From: Hyalangium ruber
GTDB lineage: Bacteria > Myxococcota > Myxococcia > Myxococcales > Myxococcaceae
DNA length: 64,000 bases
NCBI RefSeq assembly: GCF_034259325.1
Contig: NZ_JAXIVS010000001.1
Coordinates: 248,001-312,000, forward strand
Reading direction: 5' to 3'
Position numbers and translations under genes: made by a program. Positions 2,566 through 58,437 of this stretch are shown in pieces; the first letter of the stretch is position 1, and the number at the start of each line of letters is the position of its first letter. Below the pieces are notes generated by a model that ran no database searches, was not told the DNA's origin, and saw nothing but the letters and a program-made list of their open reading frames with translations.

Positions 2566-3603
2566 CTATGCCTCGGGGGGAATGAGGACGAGGCGGCCCG
2601 CCACCTCGCGGTTCTCCAGGCGGAAGTGCGACCGGCCCGCTTCGGCCAGCGCCATCGCCTCGGACACGAACGGGCGAATCTTCCCCGAGGCCGTCAACCG
2701 CAGCGCCTCGTCCAGCTCGCCGAGCGTCGTCGCGTAGGCACCGAGGATCTCCAGCTCCTTGACGATGACCAGGCCCGGGTTGAGGTTCACCACGCCCGAC
2801 TCCAGGTTGCCCACCACCACCACGCGTCCACCCGGCGCCATCGACTTGAGCGACTGCTCGAAGGTCGCGCTGCCGACGATCTCCACGGCCACGTTGACGC
2901 CCTCGCCCGCTGTGCGGCGACGCACCTCGGCGGCGAAGTCCAGCCCTCGCGAGACGATGACCTCCGCGGCCCCCGCCTCATGCAGGGCCTGCACCTTGGC
3001 CTCGCTGGAGGTCACGGCGATGACGCGCGCCCCATCCTCCTTGGCCAGCTGGACCGCCGACAGCCCCACGCCTCCGCTGGCGCCGGTGATGAGCACCGTC
3101 TCTCCGGGCTTCACCTGACCGCGCGTCCGCACGGTGTGGACCGCCGTGCCCGTGGTGCAGCAGGCCGTGGCCGCCACCTCCCAGGCCATGTTGTCCGGGA
3201 CGCGCCCCAGTCCCGCCACCGGCGCCACCATGAACTGCGCGTAGCCACCGGGCAGCTCTTCGCCGAAGAAGCGGTTGTCCTTGCGGCACAGGCTGTTGCG
3301 CCCGCTGCGACACAGCGCGCACTCCCCGCACGAGAGCCGCTGCAGCGTGGCCACCCGGTCTCCGATCTTCCACCCCGGAGTGTCCGGGCCCACCTCCACC
3401 ACCTCGCCAGCCGCCTCGTGGCCGAGGATGGCGGGCACATGCGTGCGAGGCAGGTTGCCCCGGCGGTTGATCACGTCGTGGTAGCAGACTCCGCAGGCCC
3501 GCACGTGAACGAGCACCTCGCCACGGCCGGGGCGAGGCATGGGGACGCTCTCCATCCGCAGGTTGCTCGCGGCGCCAAACTCCCGAAGAACGACAGCCTT
3601 CAT
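2566..3603 (-). CDS. aibC: AibC, zinc-containing MDR-family reductase (3,3-dimethylacrylyl-CoA to isovaleryl-CoA)
   Basis: A 345-residue medium-chain dehydrogenase/reductase. Catalytic-zinc ligands lie around ACGVCYHD (Cys 40) and GHE (His 62); the structural-zinc set is Cys 92, 95, 98 and 106. A Rossmann motif (TGASGGVGLSAV) follows near residue 170. The ATG at 3603 is chosen because AGGAG precedes it and it follows the aibB stop; an upstream in-frame ATG at 3702 would overlap aibB. In M. xanthus AibC reduces 3,3-dimethylacrylyl-CoA as the last step of the alternative isovaleryl-CoA route. Without the operon it could only be called an alcohol dehydrogenase. Confidence 0.88.
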   Translation of the reverse strand: MKAVVLREFGAASNLRMESVPMPRPGRGEVLVHVRACGVCYHDVINRRGNLPRTHVPAILGHEAAGEVVEVGPDTPGWKIGDRVATLQRLSCGECALCRSGRNSLCRKDNRFFGEELPGGYAQFMVAPVAGLGRVPDNMAWEVAATACCTTGTAVHTVRTRGQVKPGETVLITGASGGVGLSAVQLAKEDGARVIAVTSSEAKVQALHEAGAAEVIVSRGLDFAAEVRRRTAGEGVNVAVEIVGSATFEQSLKSMAPGGRVVVVGNLESGVVNLNPGLVIVKELEILGAYATTLGELDEALRLTASGKIRPFVSEAMALAEAGRSHFRLENREVAGRLVLIPPEA

Positions 3604-3631
3604 TCCAGGTGACTCCTGATGGGCTACGACG

Positions 3632-4372
3632 TCAGGCCCCCACGAGTTGATCGCGGAGGCAGTGAGAATCGATGGCTCGGATCGCCGCCAGCGTGCGCTC
3701 ATCCGGCAGCGGGGTGATGGGCAACTGCTCCTCCACCGAGAAGGAGAAGCCGGTGCGCTCGGAGACCTGCTCCACCGTGGTCCAGGGGTGCAGGGACTTC
3801 AGCCAGGCGCCCTCCACTCCGAGCTCGAAGACGCCCAGATCCGAGATGAGGCGTACCGTCCGGCGTGGATCCTGAGTGGTCGCCACCTGCACCTGGGGCA
3901 CCAGGTTGCGGCGCGACTGACGGGGCACCACCAGCACCGGCCGGCGGACCCACTGCCGCAACGTGGCCGCTCCCGCCACTCCAGGGAACTTGGTGCGGGG
4001 CTGCTCCAGGCTGCCCGAGGCCGTCATGTTCGTCCGCCCTCGGCCATCCACCTCCGCCGCTCCGAAGAAGACGGTGTCCACCCGCCCGCGCCGCGCGTGG
4101 TCGAATAGATCCGGGATGGTGATCTCCGCCGTGCGCCCGTTCAGGTAGCCGAGATCCTCCGAAGAGGGCAGCAGCGTGGGCAGTTCCGGATCCAGCGAGC
4201 CCACGCACGCGAGGTACGTGAGCCCGGGCGCGTGCGTGGCCCGCGCCACGGCGATGGCGAGGATGGCCAGCGGCGAGGCCACTCCCGTGGCCACCACGGC
4301 GCCGTCGTCGATCTCCCGCGCCAGCAGCGCGACCACCGTCTCCGCCGGCGTGGCCTGGACCGAGGCGCTCAT
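3632..4372 (-). CDS. aibB: AibB, class I CoA-transferase-like subunit of 3-methylglutaconyl-CoA decarboxylase
   Basis: A 246-residue protein of the CoA-transferase beta-subunit family. With AibA it forms the M. xanthus enzyme that decarboxylates 3-methylglutaconyl-CoA to 3,3-dimethylacrylyl-CoA rather than transferring CoA. At the point where true transferases carry the catalytic Glu, the sequence reads LACVGSLD with Cys at residue 56; as I recall, a Cys at this position is reported for M. xanthus AibB, which supports a decarboxylase. Its ATG overlaps the aibA stop (ATGA), so translation is coupled and equal stoichiometry is expected. Confidence 0.9.
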   Translation of the reverse strand: MSASVQATPAETVVALLAREIDDGAVVATGVASPLAILAIAVARATHAPGLTYLACVGSLDPELPTLLPSSEDLGYLNGRTAEITIPDLFDHARRGRVDTVFFGAAEVDGRGRTNMTASGSLEQPRTKFPGVAGAATLRQWVRRPVLVVPRQSRRNLVPQVQVATTQDPRRTVRLISDLGVFELGVEGAWLKSLHPWTTVEQVSERTGFSFSVEEQLPITPLPDERTLAAIRAIDSHCLRDQLVGA

Positions 4373-49552: not shown

Positions 49553-50572
49553 TTACTTCCCCTGGGCTGCTTTGCCTGCGGGAGCCTTCGTGGGAGTGCT
49601 CTTCACGGCGGGCGTCAGCAGATCCACTCGTCCCTCGGGATAGATCGCCGTGAGTCGATCACCGCGAATCTCCAGGGCCGCGAGGTGTCTGCCGTAACCT
49701 GTGCTCAGCCCCGTGTCGATGAACACCGTCCGCCCGCCGAACCGGATCCGGATTCGGCCATCCTCCGTGGTGGTGTGTCCCATCACCATCCGCTTCGCGC
49801 CGAAGCGCTTCAACACTTCATCGAGGCGCTCGCCCCACTGCGCCTCCGACTCCAGCGCATAGCCCCGGAACCACAGCGGGCCCAGAGGATGGGTACCACC
49901 GCCCGGCGGTTGGCCCTGGAAGAGATCCTGCCGCACCCAGCGGTTGAGCTCCGCGAGCGTCTTCGCTGGCACCTCCGGCTGGAGCCCTCCGTGCATGAAG
50001 AGGGTGCCGTCGATGCGCAGCACCGCCGGACGCGCGCGCAGCCACCGGCCGTAGCGGCCCTCGGAGCTGAAGGCCACGCGGTGGCCAGCGAGCCCTCGGG
50101 GCGTTCCGGGCGCGTCCGGCGTGGGGCTCTGGTCCGCGTACGAGGCAAGCTCCTCGGGCGTCACATAGCGCCGGTCCCCGAGCATGTTCATCACCTCGTG
50201 GTTGCCAAGGAGCACGTGGACGCGGCCTCCAGCGGCGGCGGCCTCGCGCTCCAAGCGCATCAGGAGTTCGTAGGCGTCTCGGGTCTTGGCGCCACGATCG
50301 GCGATGTCTCCGGTCTGCACCAGGTGCGCCTTGCCGCCGGTCCACTTTCCCTTCGCGTCGATGACCCCGGCCATCCGCAGCACTTCCGCCAGCGCGTCCA
50401 CGTCGCCGTGTACATCCCCCACCGCGACCACGCGCTCCACGCCCTCGAAGGTGTCTGGCACCGCATCCTCCAGACGCGGCTGAGCCTCGGGAGTGGCGGC
50501 CCAGAGCCACGGTGTCAGCAGAAGCACCCCGACGACACGCAGGGCAGGACAGGACGGAAGAGAGGAGCGCAT
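49553..50572 (-). CDS. Exported PPP-type metallophosphatase, Shewanella-like
   Basis: A 339-residue calcineurin-like phosphoesterase with a signal peptide (residues 1-26). Metal motifs are VGDVHGD (51-57), TGDIADRG, LGNHEV and the late GHTTTEDGRI, all intact. The order and spacing match bacterial Shewanella-like protein phosphatases rather than generic phosphodiesterases. GGAGGAG precedes the ATG at 50572. The substrate is unknown; export implies a periplasmic or external phosphomonoester or phosphoprotein. The trypsin-like gene lies upstream on the same strand with a 47-base gap. Confidence 0.85.
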   Translation of the reverse strand: MRSSLPSCPALRVVGVLLLTPWLWAATPEAQPRLEDAVPDTFEGVERVVAVGDVHGDVDALAEVLRMAGVIDAKGKWTGGKAHLVQTGDIADRGAKTRDAYELLMRLEREAAAAGGRVHVLLGNHEVMNMLGDRRYVTPEELASYADQSPTPDAPGTPRGLAGHRVAFSSEGRYGRWLRARPAVLRIDGTLFMHGGLQPEVPAKTLAELNRWVRQDLFQGQPPGGGTHPLGPLWFRGYALESEAQWGERLDEVLKRFGAKRMVMGHTTTEDGRIRIRFGGRTVFIDTGLSTGYGRHLAALEIRGDRLTAIYPEGRVDLLTPAVKSTPTKAPAGKAAQGK

Positions 50573-52495: not shown

Positions 52496-54352
52496 ATGCG
52501 CCGAGGCCCATACGCCTGGTTCCTCCAACGACTGGATTTCTTCCTGCGGGAGGACCAGCGCCGTGCGCCTCCGGACGATGTCAGCCGCTACCGCGTCATC
52601 CTCGCCACCGCGAGCCTGCTCACGGGGCTGAGCACCTTCTACCTGCTCGGCGCGCTGAAGCTCGCGGACCCCTTCCAGACGGTGCTCGCCACCAGCTGCA
52701 TCGTGGGCTACGTGTGTACGCTGCTGTTCGTGCGCACCAGCACCGCGCCCTGGCCTCCGGGCCTGCTGTTGTGCTCCATCATGGCGGGCTCCTATGTCTC
52801 CGCGGGCCTCCGCCTGGGGGGGCCGAACACGGGGGCGCACATTGCCAGCACCCTCATTCCCCTGCTGGCCTTCTTCCTCATGGGGGCCCGGGGCAGCTTC
52901 TTCTTCGCCGCGCTGATGGCCCTGTACGCGACCCTCATCCACCCCCTCTACCTCGCCGGGTTCGATGTCTCGAGCCCGCTGTTCAGCGGGACCTTGGAGT
53001 TGGCGGGCAACCTCTTCGCCGCCCTCTGCATCCTGGGGGTGTGGGGGCTGGTCTATGTCCACAGTCGGGCCCGGGATGATGCGCAGGCGGCGCTCGAGCG
53101 GACCCTGCGCGGGCTGGGCGAGAGCGAGCGCAAGCTGTCCAGCCTCGTGGAGTGTACGGACGACGTCGTCTGCTCCCTGGACTCACAGGGCCGCCTGCTC
53201 ACCGCCAACGCGGCGATGAAGAAGTGGTTCTCGCGGCTCTTCGGGCAGGAGCCCCTGCTGGGCGAGCCCATCGACACCCCCCTCTTCCTCCAGCAGCACC
53301 CCGACTGGCCGCTCAGCCTCACCCGAGTCCTGCGTGGCGAGTCCGTGCGCGCCGAGGTGACCTACTCGCTGGCGGAGTACACCCTGGCGCTGGACTTCTC
53401 CCTCACGCCCATCCCCGGAGAGGATGGCCGGCCCGCGGGGGTGACGATCTTCGGGCGCGACATCAGCGCACGCCTCGATGCCGAGACCCGCCTGGGCGAG
53501 CTGCATCGCAGCCTGATGGAGGCCTCGCGCAAGGCGGGCATGGCGGAGATCGCCACCGGCGTGCTCCACAACGTGGGCAACACGCTCAACAGCGTCAACG
53601 TCTCGGCGACCCTCATCGCGGAGCGCCTGCGCGGCTCGCGCGTCACGGGCCTGGCGCGGGCCGCGGAGATGCTTCAAGCGCACACGCAGGAGCTGGGCAC
53701 CTTCCTCACCCAGGACGAGAAAGGCCGCCTGCTGCCAGAGTATTTCTTGTCCGCCTCCCGGCAGCTGGTGCAAGAACAACAGGTGATGCTCACCGAGGTC
53801 CAGTCGCTCACCAAGAACGTCGAGCACATCAAGTCCGTGGTGGGAATGCAGCAGGAGCACGCGAAGTTCTCCGGCCTGATGGAGCACGTGACGCTGCCCG
53901 AGCTCATCGATGACGCGCTGCGGCTGCACGCCACCTCCTTCGATCGGCTGGGCATCCACGTCCGCCGCGACTACGCGGAGGTGCCCGCGGTCCTGGTGGA
54001 TCGACACCGCCTGCTGCAGATCCTCGTCAACCTGCTGAGCAACGCGCGGCACGCGCTGCTGGAGAGCGAGCGCACCGACAAGCAGCTCACCCTGCGCGTC
54101 CTCCCCGTGCCCCAGGAGCGGCTGCGCATCGAGGTGGCCGACAACGGGGTCGGCATCTCCTCGGAGAACCTCGCCCGGCTCTTCACCCAGGGCTTCACCA
54201 CCAAGAAGAGCGGACATGGCTTCGGGCTGCACGCCAGTGCCCTGGCGGCGGCCGAGATGAAGGGCAGCCTCACCTGCGCGAGCGCCGGTCGCGATCAGGG
54301 AGCCACCTTCGCCATCGAACTCCCCCTCACCGGCGAGCCTGTTCGTACATGA
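52496..54352 (+). CDS. Membrane-bound sensor histidine kinase with PAS domain
   Basis: A 618-residue kinase. Six membrane helices lie in residues 34-190. A PAS domain follows at about 215-340 (SSLVECTDDVVCSLDSQGRLLTAN), then a DHp domain with His 358 in GVLHNVGNTLNSV, an H-box of the LHNVGN subtype. The ATPase domain has the N-box QILVNLLSNARHAL, G1 VADNGVGIS and G2 GHGFGLHASA, all intact. Its stop overlaps the ATG of the next gene (ATGA), so the two form a coupled module. The signal is unknown. Confidence 0.9.
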   Translation: MRRGPYAWFLQRLDFFLREDQRRAPPDDVSRYRVILATASLLTGLSTFYLLGALKLADPFQTVLATSCIVGYVCTLLFVRTSTAPWPPGLLLCSIMAGSYVSAGLRLGGPNTGAHIASTLIPLLAFFLMGARGSFFFAALMALYATLIHPLYLAGFDVSSPLFSGTLELAGNLFAALCILGVWGLVYVHSRARDDAQAALERTLRGLGESERKLSSLVECTDDVVCSLDSQGRLLTANAAMKKWFSRLFGQEPLLGEPIDTPLFLQQHPDWPLSLTRVLRGESVRAEVTYSLAEYTLALDFSLTPIPGEDGRPAGVTIFGRDISARLDAETRLGELHRSLMEASRKAGMAEIATGVLHNVGNTLNSVNVSATLIAERLRGSRVTGLARAAEMLQAHTQELGTFLTQDEKGRLLPEYFLSASRQLVQEQQVMLTEVQSLTKNVEHIKSVVGMQQEHAKFSGLMEHVTLPELIDDALRLHATSFDRLGIHVRRDYAEVPAVLVDRHRLLQILVNLLSNARHALLESERTDKQLTLRVLPVPQERLRIEVADNGVGISSENLARLFTQGFTTKKSGHGFGLHASALAAAEMKGSLTCASAGRDQGATFAIELPLTGEPVRT

Positions 54353-55551
54353 GTTCCCCCGATCCCACGCCCCGCCGCCTCCTGGTCATCGACGACAACC
54401 CGGCCATCCACGAGGACTTCCAGAAGATCCTCGCCCCCGCCGAGGGCAGCACCACGCTGGACGCGCTGGAGTCGGCCCTCTTCGGAGCACCCCAGGCTCG
54501 TACCGGGCCGTACCTGTTCCAGGTGGACACCGCCTCCCAGGGCGAGGAGGGCATCCAGCGCGTGCGCACCGCGCGCCGAGAGGGACAGCCCTACGCCGTG
54601 GCCTTCGTGGACATCCGCATGCCTCCCGGCATCGACGGGGTGGAGACCACCGAGCAGCTGTGGAAGGAGGATGAGGACCTCCAGGTGGTGCTCTGCTCCG
54701 CCTACGCGGACTACTCGTGGGAGGAGGTGGCGCAGCGGCTGGGAATCAGCCAGCGGCTGCTCATCCTCCGCAAGCCCTTCGACAACATCGAGGTGCGCCA
54801 GATGGCGCACGCGCTCGCGGAGAAGTGGGAGCTGGCGCGCCAGGGCCGCGCCCACCAGCAGCGGCTGGAGGCGCTGGGGCGGCTGGCGGCGGGCATGGCC
54901 AACGAGGCCAGCAGCCCGCTGGGCTTCGTCAGCACCAACCTGAACCACCTGCGCCTGGCGCTGGAGAAGAAGGTCGCGGGCCAGCCGCTGGAGGAGCCCG
55001 AGGAGCTGCTCGAGGCGTGCCGGGACGCGCTCATGGGCACCGAGCGCCTCAAGCGCATCGTCCAGGACGTGAAGGTCCTCGCCCGCGTGGAGCCCCAGCC
55101 CACCGCCCCCGTGGACGTGCGCAAGGTGATGGAGCAGTCCCTCTCCGAGGCGGGAGAGGCGCTGGGCGCCCGCGTCCGGTTGGTGAAGGAGCTCCAGGCC
55201 GTGCCGCTCGTCCACGCCAGTGAGCAGGGGTTGGGCCAGGTCTTCCTCCACCTGATCATCAACGCCGCTCAGGCGATGCCCGAGGCCCACCCCGAGCCGT
55301 GGATTCGCGTCGCCACGCACCCTCAGGAGCGGGGCGTCCTCATCGAGGTGCAGGACAACGGCAGCGGCATCGACCCGGAGCACCTCAGCCGCATCTTCGA
55401 GCCCTTCTTCACCACCAAGCCGATGGGGGTGGGCTCGGGCCTGGGCCTGTCCATCTGCCGTGGCATCGTCACCGGGTTCGGCGGGCAGATCTCCGTGGAC
55501 AGCGCGCCGGGCCGGGGCACCACCTTCCGCATCCAGCTCCCGCCCGCCTGA
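54349..55551 (+). CDS. Receiver-histidine kinase hybrid with Asn in place of the phosphoacceptor His
   Basis: A 400-residue protein. The receiver (residues 9-155) has Asp 15/16, phospho-Asp 88 in FVDIRMPPGIDG and Lys 142. The DHp-like part reads LAAGMANEASSPLGFV, where kinases have AHE; residue 185 is Asn (AAC, 54901-54903). The ATPase domain is complete: N-box HLIINAAQAM, G1 VQDNGSGID, FEPFFTTKPMGVGSGLGLS. It may therefore act as a phosphatase, a scaffold or a phosphorylated partner of the preceding kinase instead of an autokinase. It overlaps the previous gene by four bases. Confidence 0.88.
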   Translation: MSSPDPTPRRLLVIDDNPAIHEDFQKILAPAEGSTTLDALESALFGAPQARTGPYLFQVDTASQGEEGIQRVRTARREGQPYAVAFVDIRMPPGIDGVETTEQLWKEDEDLQVVLCSAYADYSWEEVAQRLGISQRLLILRKPFDNIEVRQMAHALAEKWELARQGRAHQQRLEALGRLAAGMANEASSPLGFVSTNLNHLRLALEKKVAGQPLEEPEELLEACRDALMGTERLKRIVQDVKVLARVEPQPTAPVDVRKVMEQSLSEAGEALGARVRLVKELQAVPLVHASEQGLGQVFLHLIINAAQAMPEAHPEPWIRVATHPQERGVLIEVQDNGSGIDPEHLSRIFEPFFTTKPMGVGSGLGLSICRGIVTGFGGQISVDSAPGRGTTFRIQLPPA

Positions 55552-55562
55552 GCGCGGGCGCC

Positions 55563-56114
55563 TCAGGTGATGTGGAAGCGGTAGTGAACCTCGTTGTTGC
55601 CCTTGGAGAAGCCCTTGAGCACCTCGTACTGGAGGTTCCTCGCCCCCAGGTACGTCAGCCCTCCGTGGGCGAAGCCCATCACCGACAGCTCGAAGTAGAG
55701 GTGGGGCCGGGGCACGCTGATGATGCGCAGCTCCGTGTAGCTGCTCTCCGGCTTCACCTGCAGCTCGCCCTCGGTGAAGTAGCCCTTCCAGATGCCGGGG
55801 GTGAAGAGCAGGAAGCGGCGGAAGTCATTCGGGCTGAACATCGTCTTGAGCTGGCCCTGGCCCAGCGCGTACTCGGCTGACTTCACCCCGAACTGCCACC
55901 AGGCCTTCACGTCCCCGTTGTAGAAGCGCTGCACCAGCGCATCGTTGAGGCGCAGGAAGGCGTCCACCGGCAGGCGCGTCACCGGCATCACCGGCTGAGC
56001 GAAGCGGGGCTCCCGGCGCGCGAACTCCTCCAGGAAGCTCCGCCATGTCGCCTCCCCGTGCGACTGCACCATCATCTGCTGCCGCGCCAGGAAAGCGACA
56101 CCTTTGACTTCCAT
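55563..56114 (-). CDS. DUF2378-like (TIGR02265) myxobacterial protein
   Basis: A 183-residue soluble protein. The start EVKGVAFLARQQMMVQSHGEATWRSFLEEF, the PVTRLPVDAFLRLNDALVQRFYNGD segment and the end YFELSVMGFAHGGLTYLGARN recall the paralogous DUF2378 family of Myxococcales, which has a heme-NO-binding-like fold and no known function. The ATG at 56114 fits the start of the domain; an in-frame ATG at 56396 would run through the neighbouring gene. It is convergent with the signalling module and divergent from the DUF2891 gene. Confidence 0.68.
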   Translation of the reverse strand: MEVKGVAFLARQQMMVQSHGEATWRSFLEEFARREPRFAQPVMPVTRLPVDAFLRLNDALVQRFYNGDVKAWWQFGVKSAEYALGQGQLKTMFSPNDFRRFLLFTPGIWKGYFTEGELQVKPESSYTELRIISVPRPHLYFELSVMGFAHGGLTYLGARNLQYEVLKGFSKGNNEVHYRFHIT

Positions 56115-57306: not shown

Positions 57307-58437
57307 TCACCGGGTGAAGCGGGCCAGGGAGAAGCGCGAGAGCTCCCATGGCACCTTCCGCTCCGTCGCCATCCAGGCGGCGATGCGGCCCAGCAGCACG
57401 GTGAACTTGAAGCCGTGCCCGCTCAGGCCGCCAACGAGCGTCACCCGCGGCTCGCCGGGCAGGTGGTCCACCACGAAGTCCTTGTCCGGCGTCACCGTGT
57501 AGAGGCAGACCTTCTCCAGGCTCACCCGGGAGGACAGCTCCGGCAGGTGCTCGGCGCAGTAGCTGCGCAGGGGCTCGCGGTCCGACTCGTGGATCTCCCG
57601 ATCCACGCGGTCTGGATCCGTCGGCGTGCCGAAGTGGTGCCACGCCAGCTTCACCCCCGGCGCCTGCCCATCGTGCGGGAAGCCGTAGAAGTCCGTGGCG
57701 AAGTCGATCCACACCGGGAAGCGCTCCGCGCCATACCCGGCGACGGGTACCTGCTCCTGGGGCTCGAAGTGGCAGTACACCTGCCGCGTCACCGTGAACG
57801 GCAGCGAGACGAAGCGCGACAACAGGCGCGCGGTCCACGGCCCCGCCGCGATGACCACCCGGTCGACCTCGAGGGACTCGCCTCCCGCCAGCGCGAGCCG
57901 GATGCCTCCCGCGTGGGGCTCGAGGCCCTCGACCGAGACACCCGTGCGCAGCCGGGCTCCGTGCGCCGTCGCCAGCCGGAGGTTGGCGCGCACGCACGCG
58001 GAGGCTCGGAGGAAGCCCGCCTCCCGCTCGAACACCCCCGACTCTCCCGCCAGCAGCCGGAGCCGGGGGAACCGCCGCGCACAGGCGGCCGGGTTCAGTT
58101 CCTCGAACGGCACGCCGTTGTCGCTCAGCGCGCGCCGGATGGCCACCAACTCCGGGTGCTCCGCTGGACCGAAGAACAGCCCGCCGGTCCGTGCGAACAG
58201 CGACTCACCGGCCTCCCGCTCCAGCTCATCCCAGAGCGGATACGCCTCGCCCATCAACGCCGTGTAGAAGCCATCCGTGTACGTCTTCCGGATGATGCGC
58301 GAGGTGCCGTACGAGCTGCCCCGGTCATGGTCGGGCGAGAACTGCTCCACCACCGTGACGTCGTGCCCCTCTCGCGCCAGGAACCGCGCCGTCGCGCTGC
58401 CCACTCCGCCGGCTCCCAGCACCGCGATGCGTGCCAT
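57307..58437 (-). CDS. Sarcosine oxidase / N-methyltryptophan oxidase-like flavoprotein
   Basis: A 376-residue DAO-family oxidase. The FAD motif AVLGAGGVGSATARFL is at residues 5-20. The covalent-flavin Cys of monomeric sarcosine oxidase is matched by EKVCLYTVTPDKDF near residue 315, and VTLVGGLSGHGFKFTVLLGR is the conserved C-terminal block. It likely oxidises a secondary or N-methylated amino acid to aldehyde plus peroxide. The leader (58441-58543) is packed with inverted repeats that include the ribosome site GGTGG. Same strand as the subtilase upstream. Confidence 0.88.
   Translation of the reverse strand: MARIAVLGAGGVGSATARFLAREGHDVTVVEQFSPDHDRGSSYGTSRIIRKTYTDGFYTALMGEAYPLWDELEREAGESLFARTGGLFFGPAEHPELVAIRRALSDNGVPFEELNPAACARRFPRLRLLAGESGVFEREAGFLRASACVRANLRLATAHGARLRTGVSVEGLEPHAGGIRLALAGGESLEVDRVVIAAGPWTARLLSRFVSLPFTVTRQVYCHFEPQEQVPVAGYGAERFPVWIDFATDFYGFPHDGQAPGVKLAWHHFGTPTDPDRVDREIHESDREPLRSYCAEHLPELSSRVSLEKVCLYTVTPDKDFVVDHLPGEPRVTLVGGLSGHGFKFTVLLGRIAAWMATERKVPWELSRFSLARFTR

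Follow-up and report, generated by a model that had tools for sequence, protein, structure and literature searches.

We consider it rather likely that RRHK, a receiver-kinase hybrid protein of Hyalangium ruber in which Asn185 stands at the position of the phosphoacceptor His, belongs to the Rec-HK class as a clade-specific pseudo-histidine kinase, and that it is read by the adjacent sensor kinase HK1 via the receiver residue Asp88 and acts allosterically, in a DivL-like manner. Within a small set of bacteria of the fruiting-body type, an amino acid required for autophosphorylation has been consistently lost from a gene that remains under selection, and RRHK has probably been turned into a switch or a docking component and no longer serves as a phosphate-passing enzyme. 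Both genes lie in the window, i.e., the whole stretch of 64,000 nucleotides analyzed here, which derives from a large genome of myxobacterial type (10.77 Mb in 43 contigs) (Table 1). A check of open reading frames (ORFs) and motifs confirmed every sequence statement of the initial annotation, namely, the AAC codon of Asn185, the intact Asp88 and ATPase motifs, the upstream LHNVGN kinase, and the four-base overlap between the two genes. This ATGA overlap suggests translational coupling of HK1 and RRHK; a scan for promoters and terminators yielded nothing useful.

Table 1. Features of the HK1-RRHK locus, in window coordinates
Feature	Coordinates	Strand	Basis
HK1, predicted membrane-bound PAS sensor kinase, 618 aa	52496..54352	+	ORF; Pfam PAS_4 and HATPase_c
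HK1 stop/RRHK start overlap, ATGA, 4 bp	54349..54352	+	Sequence
RRHK, candidate receiver-DHp-CA pseudo-histidine kinase, 400 aa	54349..55551	+	ORF, Pfam, motifs, model
RRHK receiver domain, residues 1-155	54349..54813	+	Pfam Response_reg (PF00072), E 3e-11; D15, D16, D88, S117, and K142 intact
RRHK Asp88 phosphoacceptor, GAC, in FVDIRMP	54610-54612	+	Sequence
RRHK shortened receiver-to-DHp linker, 38 aa of predicted alphaS helix missing	54814..54852	+	Trp160-H/N spacing; AlphaFold break
RRHK DHp hairpin, about residues 165-250, H-box MANEASSPL	54841..55098	+	Alignment; model helices 168-209 and 217-246
RRHK Asn185, AAC, at phosphoacceptor-His position, in AGMANEASSPL	54901-54903	+	Sequence, alignment
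RRHK Ser189, AGC, at +4 (phosphatase) position	54913..54915	+	Sequence, alignment
RRHK CA (ATP-binding) domain, catalytic motifs intact	55111..55548	+	HATPase_c, E 4e-27; invariant motif residues

The CA motifs of RRHK are intact (N305, D336-N-G-x-G, F350/F353, and G364/G366), and the single oddity of the ATP site in the window protein is H301 at the first N-box position, which is Asn in the three other orthologues that share Asn185. The +1 Glu next to Asn185 is retained. In CrdS of Myxococcus, this Glu is needed for kinase activity (PMC3510030), and one would not expect RRHK to keep it if it had no autokinase chemistry left. At +4, all four Asn-bearing RRHKs have Ser, a His-bearing sister clade has Gly, and all 24 RRHKs outside this locus group have Asn. 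Two further His residues were considered as replacement acceptors and rejected: H168 is not conserved, and H200, which is conserved in the Asn clade, is also present in several His-bearing paralogues (HLRS, HVRG, and HVHR) and is therefore no compensating gain.

HK1 has the composition of a histidine kinase, with an LHNVGN H-box containing H358 and intact N-, G1-, F-, and G2-boxes, and these boxes are conserved across the 28 aligned HK1 sequences. H358 is presumably the phosphoacceptor. HK1 matches no Pfam HisKA family, and a literature text search for the motif LHNVGN returned no match. Residues 1 to 200 of HK1 (window 52496-53095) are hydrophobic by inspection and very fast evolving, with 42-49% identity and a dN/dS of about 0.5-0.8 between the window protein and its orthologues, compared with 73-76% identity for the DHp and CA core; a similarly fast N-terminal region is seen in other genera. 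This suggests that the N-terminal region is a rapidly changing sensor.

Orthologues were sought in 96 genomes of the family, and a wider pattern scan covered 195 genomes of the phylum. The syntenic locus is present in seven genomes of one other genus (g15), where the DAO-like gene at 57307-58437 is a common neighbor and, in some genomes, so are the genes at 55563 and 56104 or the metallophosphatase gene at 49553. Three of these genomes (G087, G088, and G089) have HK1 together with an Asn-bearing RRHK (GMANEISSPLGFVSTNLNHLRLALEK), the H-box of which reads GMANEISSPL, while the other four (G014, G029, G085, and G086) have an RRHK with His (GLAHEVSGPLGFV) and no HK1 at the locus. Because three other species share the HK1-RRHK pair, its place, and the Asn, Asn185 is not a sequencing error, and a lone mutation was rejected on the same ground. 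The initial annotation had held that His in all orthologues at this position would speak against its reading; the Asn is instead fixed in all four HK1-linked orthologues of this clade, though it is not universal at the locus, where the sister clade has His and no HK1.

His is kept in all 28 other RRHKs examined, and HEINNPL or HEVNNPL is kept in the HK1-RRHK pairs of three further genera (g8, g12, and g4) and in several paralogous pairs. The pair also occurs in Pseudomonas borbori (L046), the one locus examined by hand within L046-L125. A second HK1-RRHK pair (L045:2879-6003; G000:C3, about 340.9-344.0 kb), with HEINNPL in its RRHK, exists in the genome of the window and offers a natural internal control within one genome. 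Other arrangements include HK1-RRHK-HK1 triads in two g8 genomes (L041:2706-7808 and L042:1990-7093), in which RRHK lies between two LHNVGN kinases, and loci with the LHNVGN kinase placed after RRHK (L036, L043, L044, L210, and L211).

The strict pattern G-x-A-N-E-x3-P-L occurs at six places in the 96 family genomes, four of which are RRHK genes, whereas its His version has 1,206 matches. The other two places (L231 and L236), considered as further Asn DHp domains, are antisense to a lipase-like gene. Across the 195 phylum genomes, the strict Asn pattern was found at two more places only (L257 and L258), which were rejected as they have no kinase motifs. The pattern is strict and would not pick up Asn kinases whose flanking residues differ. 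In a published survey, 0.9% of HisKA domains (722 of 76,471) are without the His (PMC12632262), so that pseudo-histidine kinases are known but uncommon. By these sequence comparisons, the Asn RRHK is specific to one clade.

In an RRHK tree built without the H-box columns, the four Asn proteins are joined with moderate support (89/85), the His-bearing sister clade lies next to them, and all eight are grouped at 100/97. That the Asn is confined to four species of a single clade with this moderate support counts against the pseudo-kinase reading. With rpoB and rpoC, the window falls together with the six g15 species that were sampled, with the order of the window, G087/G089, and the His group not resolved; G088 was left out of this comparison, as no rpoB match was found.

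The whole genomes of the four sister-clade species contain no full-length HK1 relative, and HK1 matches there are to the kinase core only, at 46% identity or less; a relocated HK1 was rejected accordingly. The Asn genomes have several full-length HK1 copies each. The sister-clade species retain their RRHK genes though the full-length HK1 family is missing. No HK1 remnant was found at the sister locus with the window HK1 as query; with the G087 HK1 as query, a low-complexity extension gave many weak matches, which were disregarded. In the sister clade, the place taken in the window by the genes for HK1, a GST, and a protease is occupied by an unrelated ORF (L194:3501-4478 and L195, about 3300-4281) that has a Cys-rich end (KCGDGVCQFTESCGRGD) and, on the opposite strand, a repeated PLADR tract.

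In the simplest history, the ancestor would have had both HK1 and the His. The +3/+4 residues would have changed first, from Asn-Asn to Ser-Ser or Ser-Gly, because both daughter clades are altered there. In one branch, CAC would then have become AAC with HK1 kept; in the other, the His would have been kept and HK1 lost. HisKA (PF00512) scores track this order: 40-42 bits in a g8 pair member and a paralogous RRHK, 19.2 bits in the His sister and 17.6 bits in the G087 RRHK (curated cutoff, 26.9), and no match at an E value of 0.01 in the window RRHK. It looks as though each of the two lineages lost one phosphorylation site, reciprocally, but this is a correlation with one event on each side. A less likely history is that Asn was ancestral to all seven species and that the His of the sister clade is a reversion; the RRHK tree makes such a reversion less likely, and LAHE is common to the sister clade and the outgroups, whereas the Asn clade has MANE.

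Among G087 to G089, dN/dS is 0.11-0.13 for the DHp domain and 0.23-0.26 for the whole RRHK gene, and comparisons with the window gave 0.39-0.40 overall (clade range, 0.23-0.40). Tajima relative-rate tests on the whole gene showed no excess of the Asn proteins over the His sister, nor any between the window protein and the other Asn proteins (P values of 0.19-0.90); accelerated evolution of the Asn proteins was thus discarded. The catalytic motifs of the receiver and CA domains are invariant, except for H301 in the window. Taken together, the low dN/dS, the equal rates, and the invariant motifs indicate that the RRHK gene, its DHp domain, and its ATP site are all maintained. The CA domain is less conserved than the DHp domain in the Asn clade, but this is also the case in His-bearing pairs, and no CA-specific relaxation is therefore claimed. 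The combination of kinase and pseudo-kinase put forward in the initial annotation is well supported by the Asn in all four HK1-linked orthologues of the clade, by synteny, and by the lack of rate acceleration; its suggestion of an allosteric partner remains and is favored, while that of a phosphatase loses ground (see below).

For the pseudo-histidine kinase, the following mechanism is proposed. HK1 would autophosphorylate and then phosphorylate Asp88 of RRHK. RRHK, presumably derived from an active Rec-controlled kinase, would be unable to autophosphorylate at the Asn185 site or to pass phosphate on from there. The Asp~P state and bound ATP would set the conformation of the retained RRHK DHp/CA dimer, which would bind and regulate another two-component protein (a response regulator or a kinase, possibly HK1), as DivL does. 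RRHK would thereby convert Asp88 phosphorylation into a protein-interaction or allosteric output, with no relay. A precedent for kinase-to-Rec-HK transfer is the phosphorylation of the NmpS receiver by NmpU in Myxococcus (PMC6211767), and the Caulobacter pseudokinase DivL, which reads DivK~P and controls CckA, is a precedent for the conversion of a kinase core into a sensor (PMC4211667). On the question of why pseudo-histidine kinases persist, DivL is the principal case that has been worked out. If RRHK is indeed an Asp~P-reading switch, it would show how a Rec-HK that once served as a relay enzyme comes to act as an allosteric output.

It is unlikely, in our estimation, that the RRHK CA domain instead phosphorylates a partner His in trans (that of HK1 or another kinase) within a heterodimer, with RRHK supplying catalysis and the partner the phosphoacceptor. 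All four proteins have intact CA motifs, and their CA domain shows no faster evolution than that of the His proteins; this would be difficult to account for if ATP chemistry served no purpose. The preserved ATP site and the +1 Glu, which CrdS requires for kinase activity, point the same way; the stop/start overlap of HK1 and RRHK favors co-assembly, and pseudokinase-paralogue heterodimers are known for ChrS/HrrS (PMC9491836). However, the DHp types differ (AN-E-x-x-S-P in RRHK and LHNVGN in HK1), with little similarity outside the CA domain, so that mixed four-helix dimers are not expected, and HK1 has an intact CA domain of its own. We are similarly skeptical of a broader proposal, in which a two-kinase module was reciprocally simplified in sister lineages (one keeping the sensor kinase and disarming the Rec-HK by His-to-Asn change, the other keeping the Rec-HK and discarding the full-length sensor-kinase family) and the disarmed RRHK still uses its ATPase domain, either phosphorylating a partner His in trans or serving as an ATP- and Asp~P-gated switch on the partner.

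A role as a dedicated response-regulator phosphatase, kinase-dead and phosphatase-on, is quite improbable. The conserved RRHK DHp domain would suit it, and the CrdS H371A variant shows that HisKA phosphatases can do without the His (PMC3510030). However, CrdS and other HisKA kinases need Asn or Thr at +4 to act as phosphatases, and of the CrdS variants N375A, N375Q, and N375D are dead and N375T is partially active (PMC3510030); Ser is not among the substitutions in the available part of that report. Since the +4 residue is Ser in all four Asn proteins (and Gly in the His sister), in place of the Asn or Thr of HisKA phosphatases, this role is disfavored. It is very doubtful that RRHK serves HK1 solely as a sink for phosphate or the end of a relay via Asp88, with the DHp and CA domains as inert relics: a fully intact, well-conserved receiver and the phosphosink role proposed for NmpT in the Nmp system would fit, but purifying selection and intact motifs extend to the DHp and CA domains in all four species. 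Hardly credible, and largely refuted for the clade as a whole, is a decaying gene or an artefact, for although the window copy alone has lost the linker residues and has the N-box H301, and its DHp domain is below Pfam HisKA detection, the same Asn is present in three independent assemblies, the frames are open, dN/dS is well below 1, and relative rates are equal.

The spacing from Trp160 to the H/N position is 25 aa in the window RRHK versus 63 in its orthologues and 49-52 in paralogues; the three Asn orthologues retain the linker length, and the 38-aa loss is found in the window copy alone. The missing residues belong to the predicted signaling helix (alphaS), and at 25 rather than 63 aa the window protein lacks the alphaS coiled-coil linker of Rec-HKs. 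In an AlphaFold model (mean pLDDT, 74; pTM, 0.51), the receiver, DHp hairpin, and CA domain are retained, with a low-confidence break at residues 166-178. The best full-length Foldseek match is the Rec-HK LvrB, and DivL was also matched. When the LvrB receiver is phosphorylated, its signaling helix adopts a coiled coil and releases the CA domains (PMC13269768). The linker loss suggests that receiver-to-DHp coupling is altered further in the window species, and it could reflect weakening function. The initial annotation mentioned neither this loss nor the +4 change.

Among known systems, LvrB of Leptospira and NmpS of Myxococcus xanthus share with RRHK an N-terminal receiver with a phosphorylatable Asp, followed by DHp and CA domains, and their receivers are phosphorylated by an upstream kinase, LvrA and NmpU, respectively (PMC13269768, PMC6211767). 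Unlike RRHK, with its Asn and +4 Ser, both carry a functional phosphoacceptor His and transfer phosphate to a response regulator, LvrC and NmpR, respectively, and most of the alphaS linker, on which LvrB activation hinges, is missing from the window RRHK. Because Asn replaces His in all four clade members, RRHK is a derived pseudo-form and not an active Rec-HK. DivL likewise combines conserved loss of the phosphoacceptor with a retained DHp/CA fold and a proposed sensor or allosteric role (PMC4211667), but it has Tyr (or Ala) at this position, several PAS domains, and no N-terminal receiver, and it acts on CckA/DivK; the likeness, matched by fold, is at the level of the general kinase core. 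The RcsD core and ChrS-Ala245fs are also kinase-like proteins with an incomplete catalytic set in two-component networks, though other parts are lost and the architecture differs. In the pairs of g8, g12, g4, and P. borbori, an LHNVGN kinase adjoins a receiver-DHp-CA protein as in the window, but these RRHKs (HEINNP) keep both the His and the +4 Asn. The sister-clade RRHKs occupy the same locus, show 64% identity over the aligned length, and have the same receiver and CA domains, yet differ from the window RRHK in having His, +4 Gly, the full 63-residue linker, and no HK1. Active, disarmed, and partner-less forms all exist at one chromosomal place in close relatives, and these three states make ancestral-like and derived proteins directly comparable.
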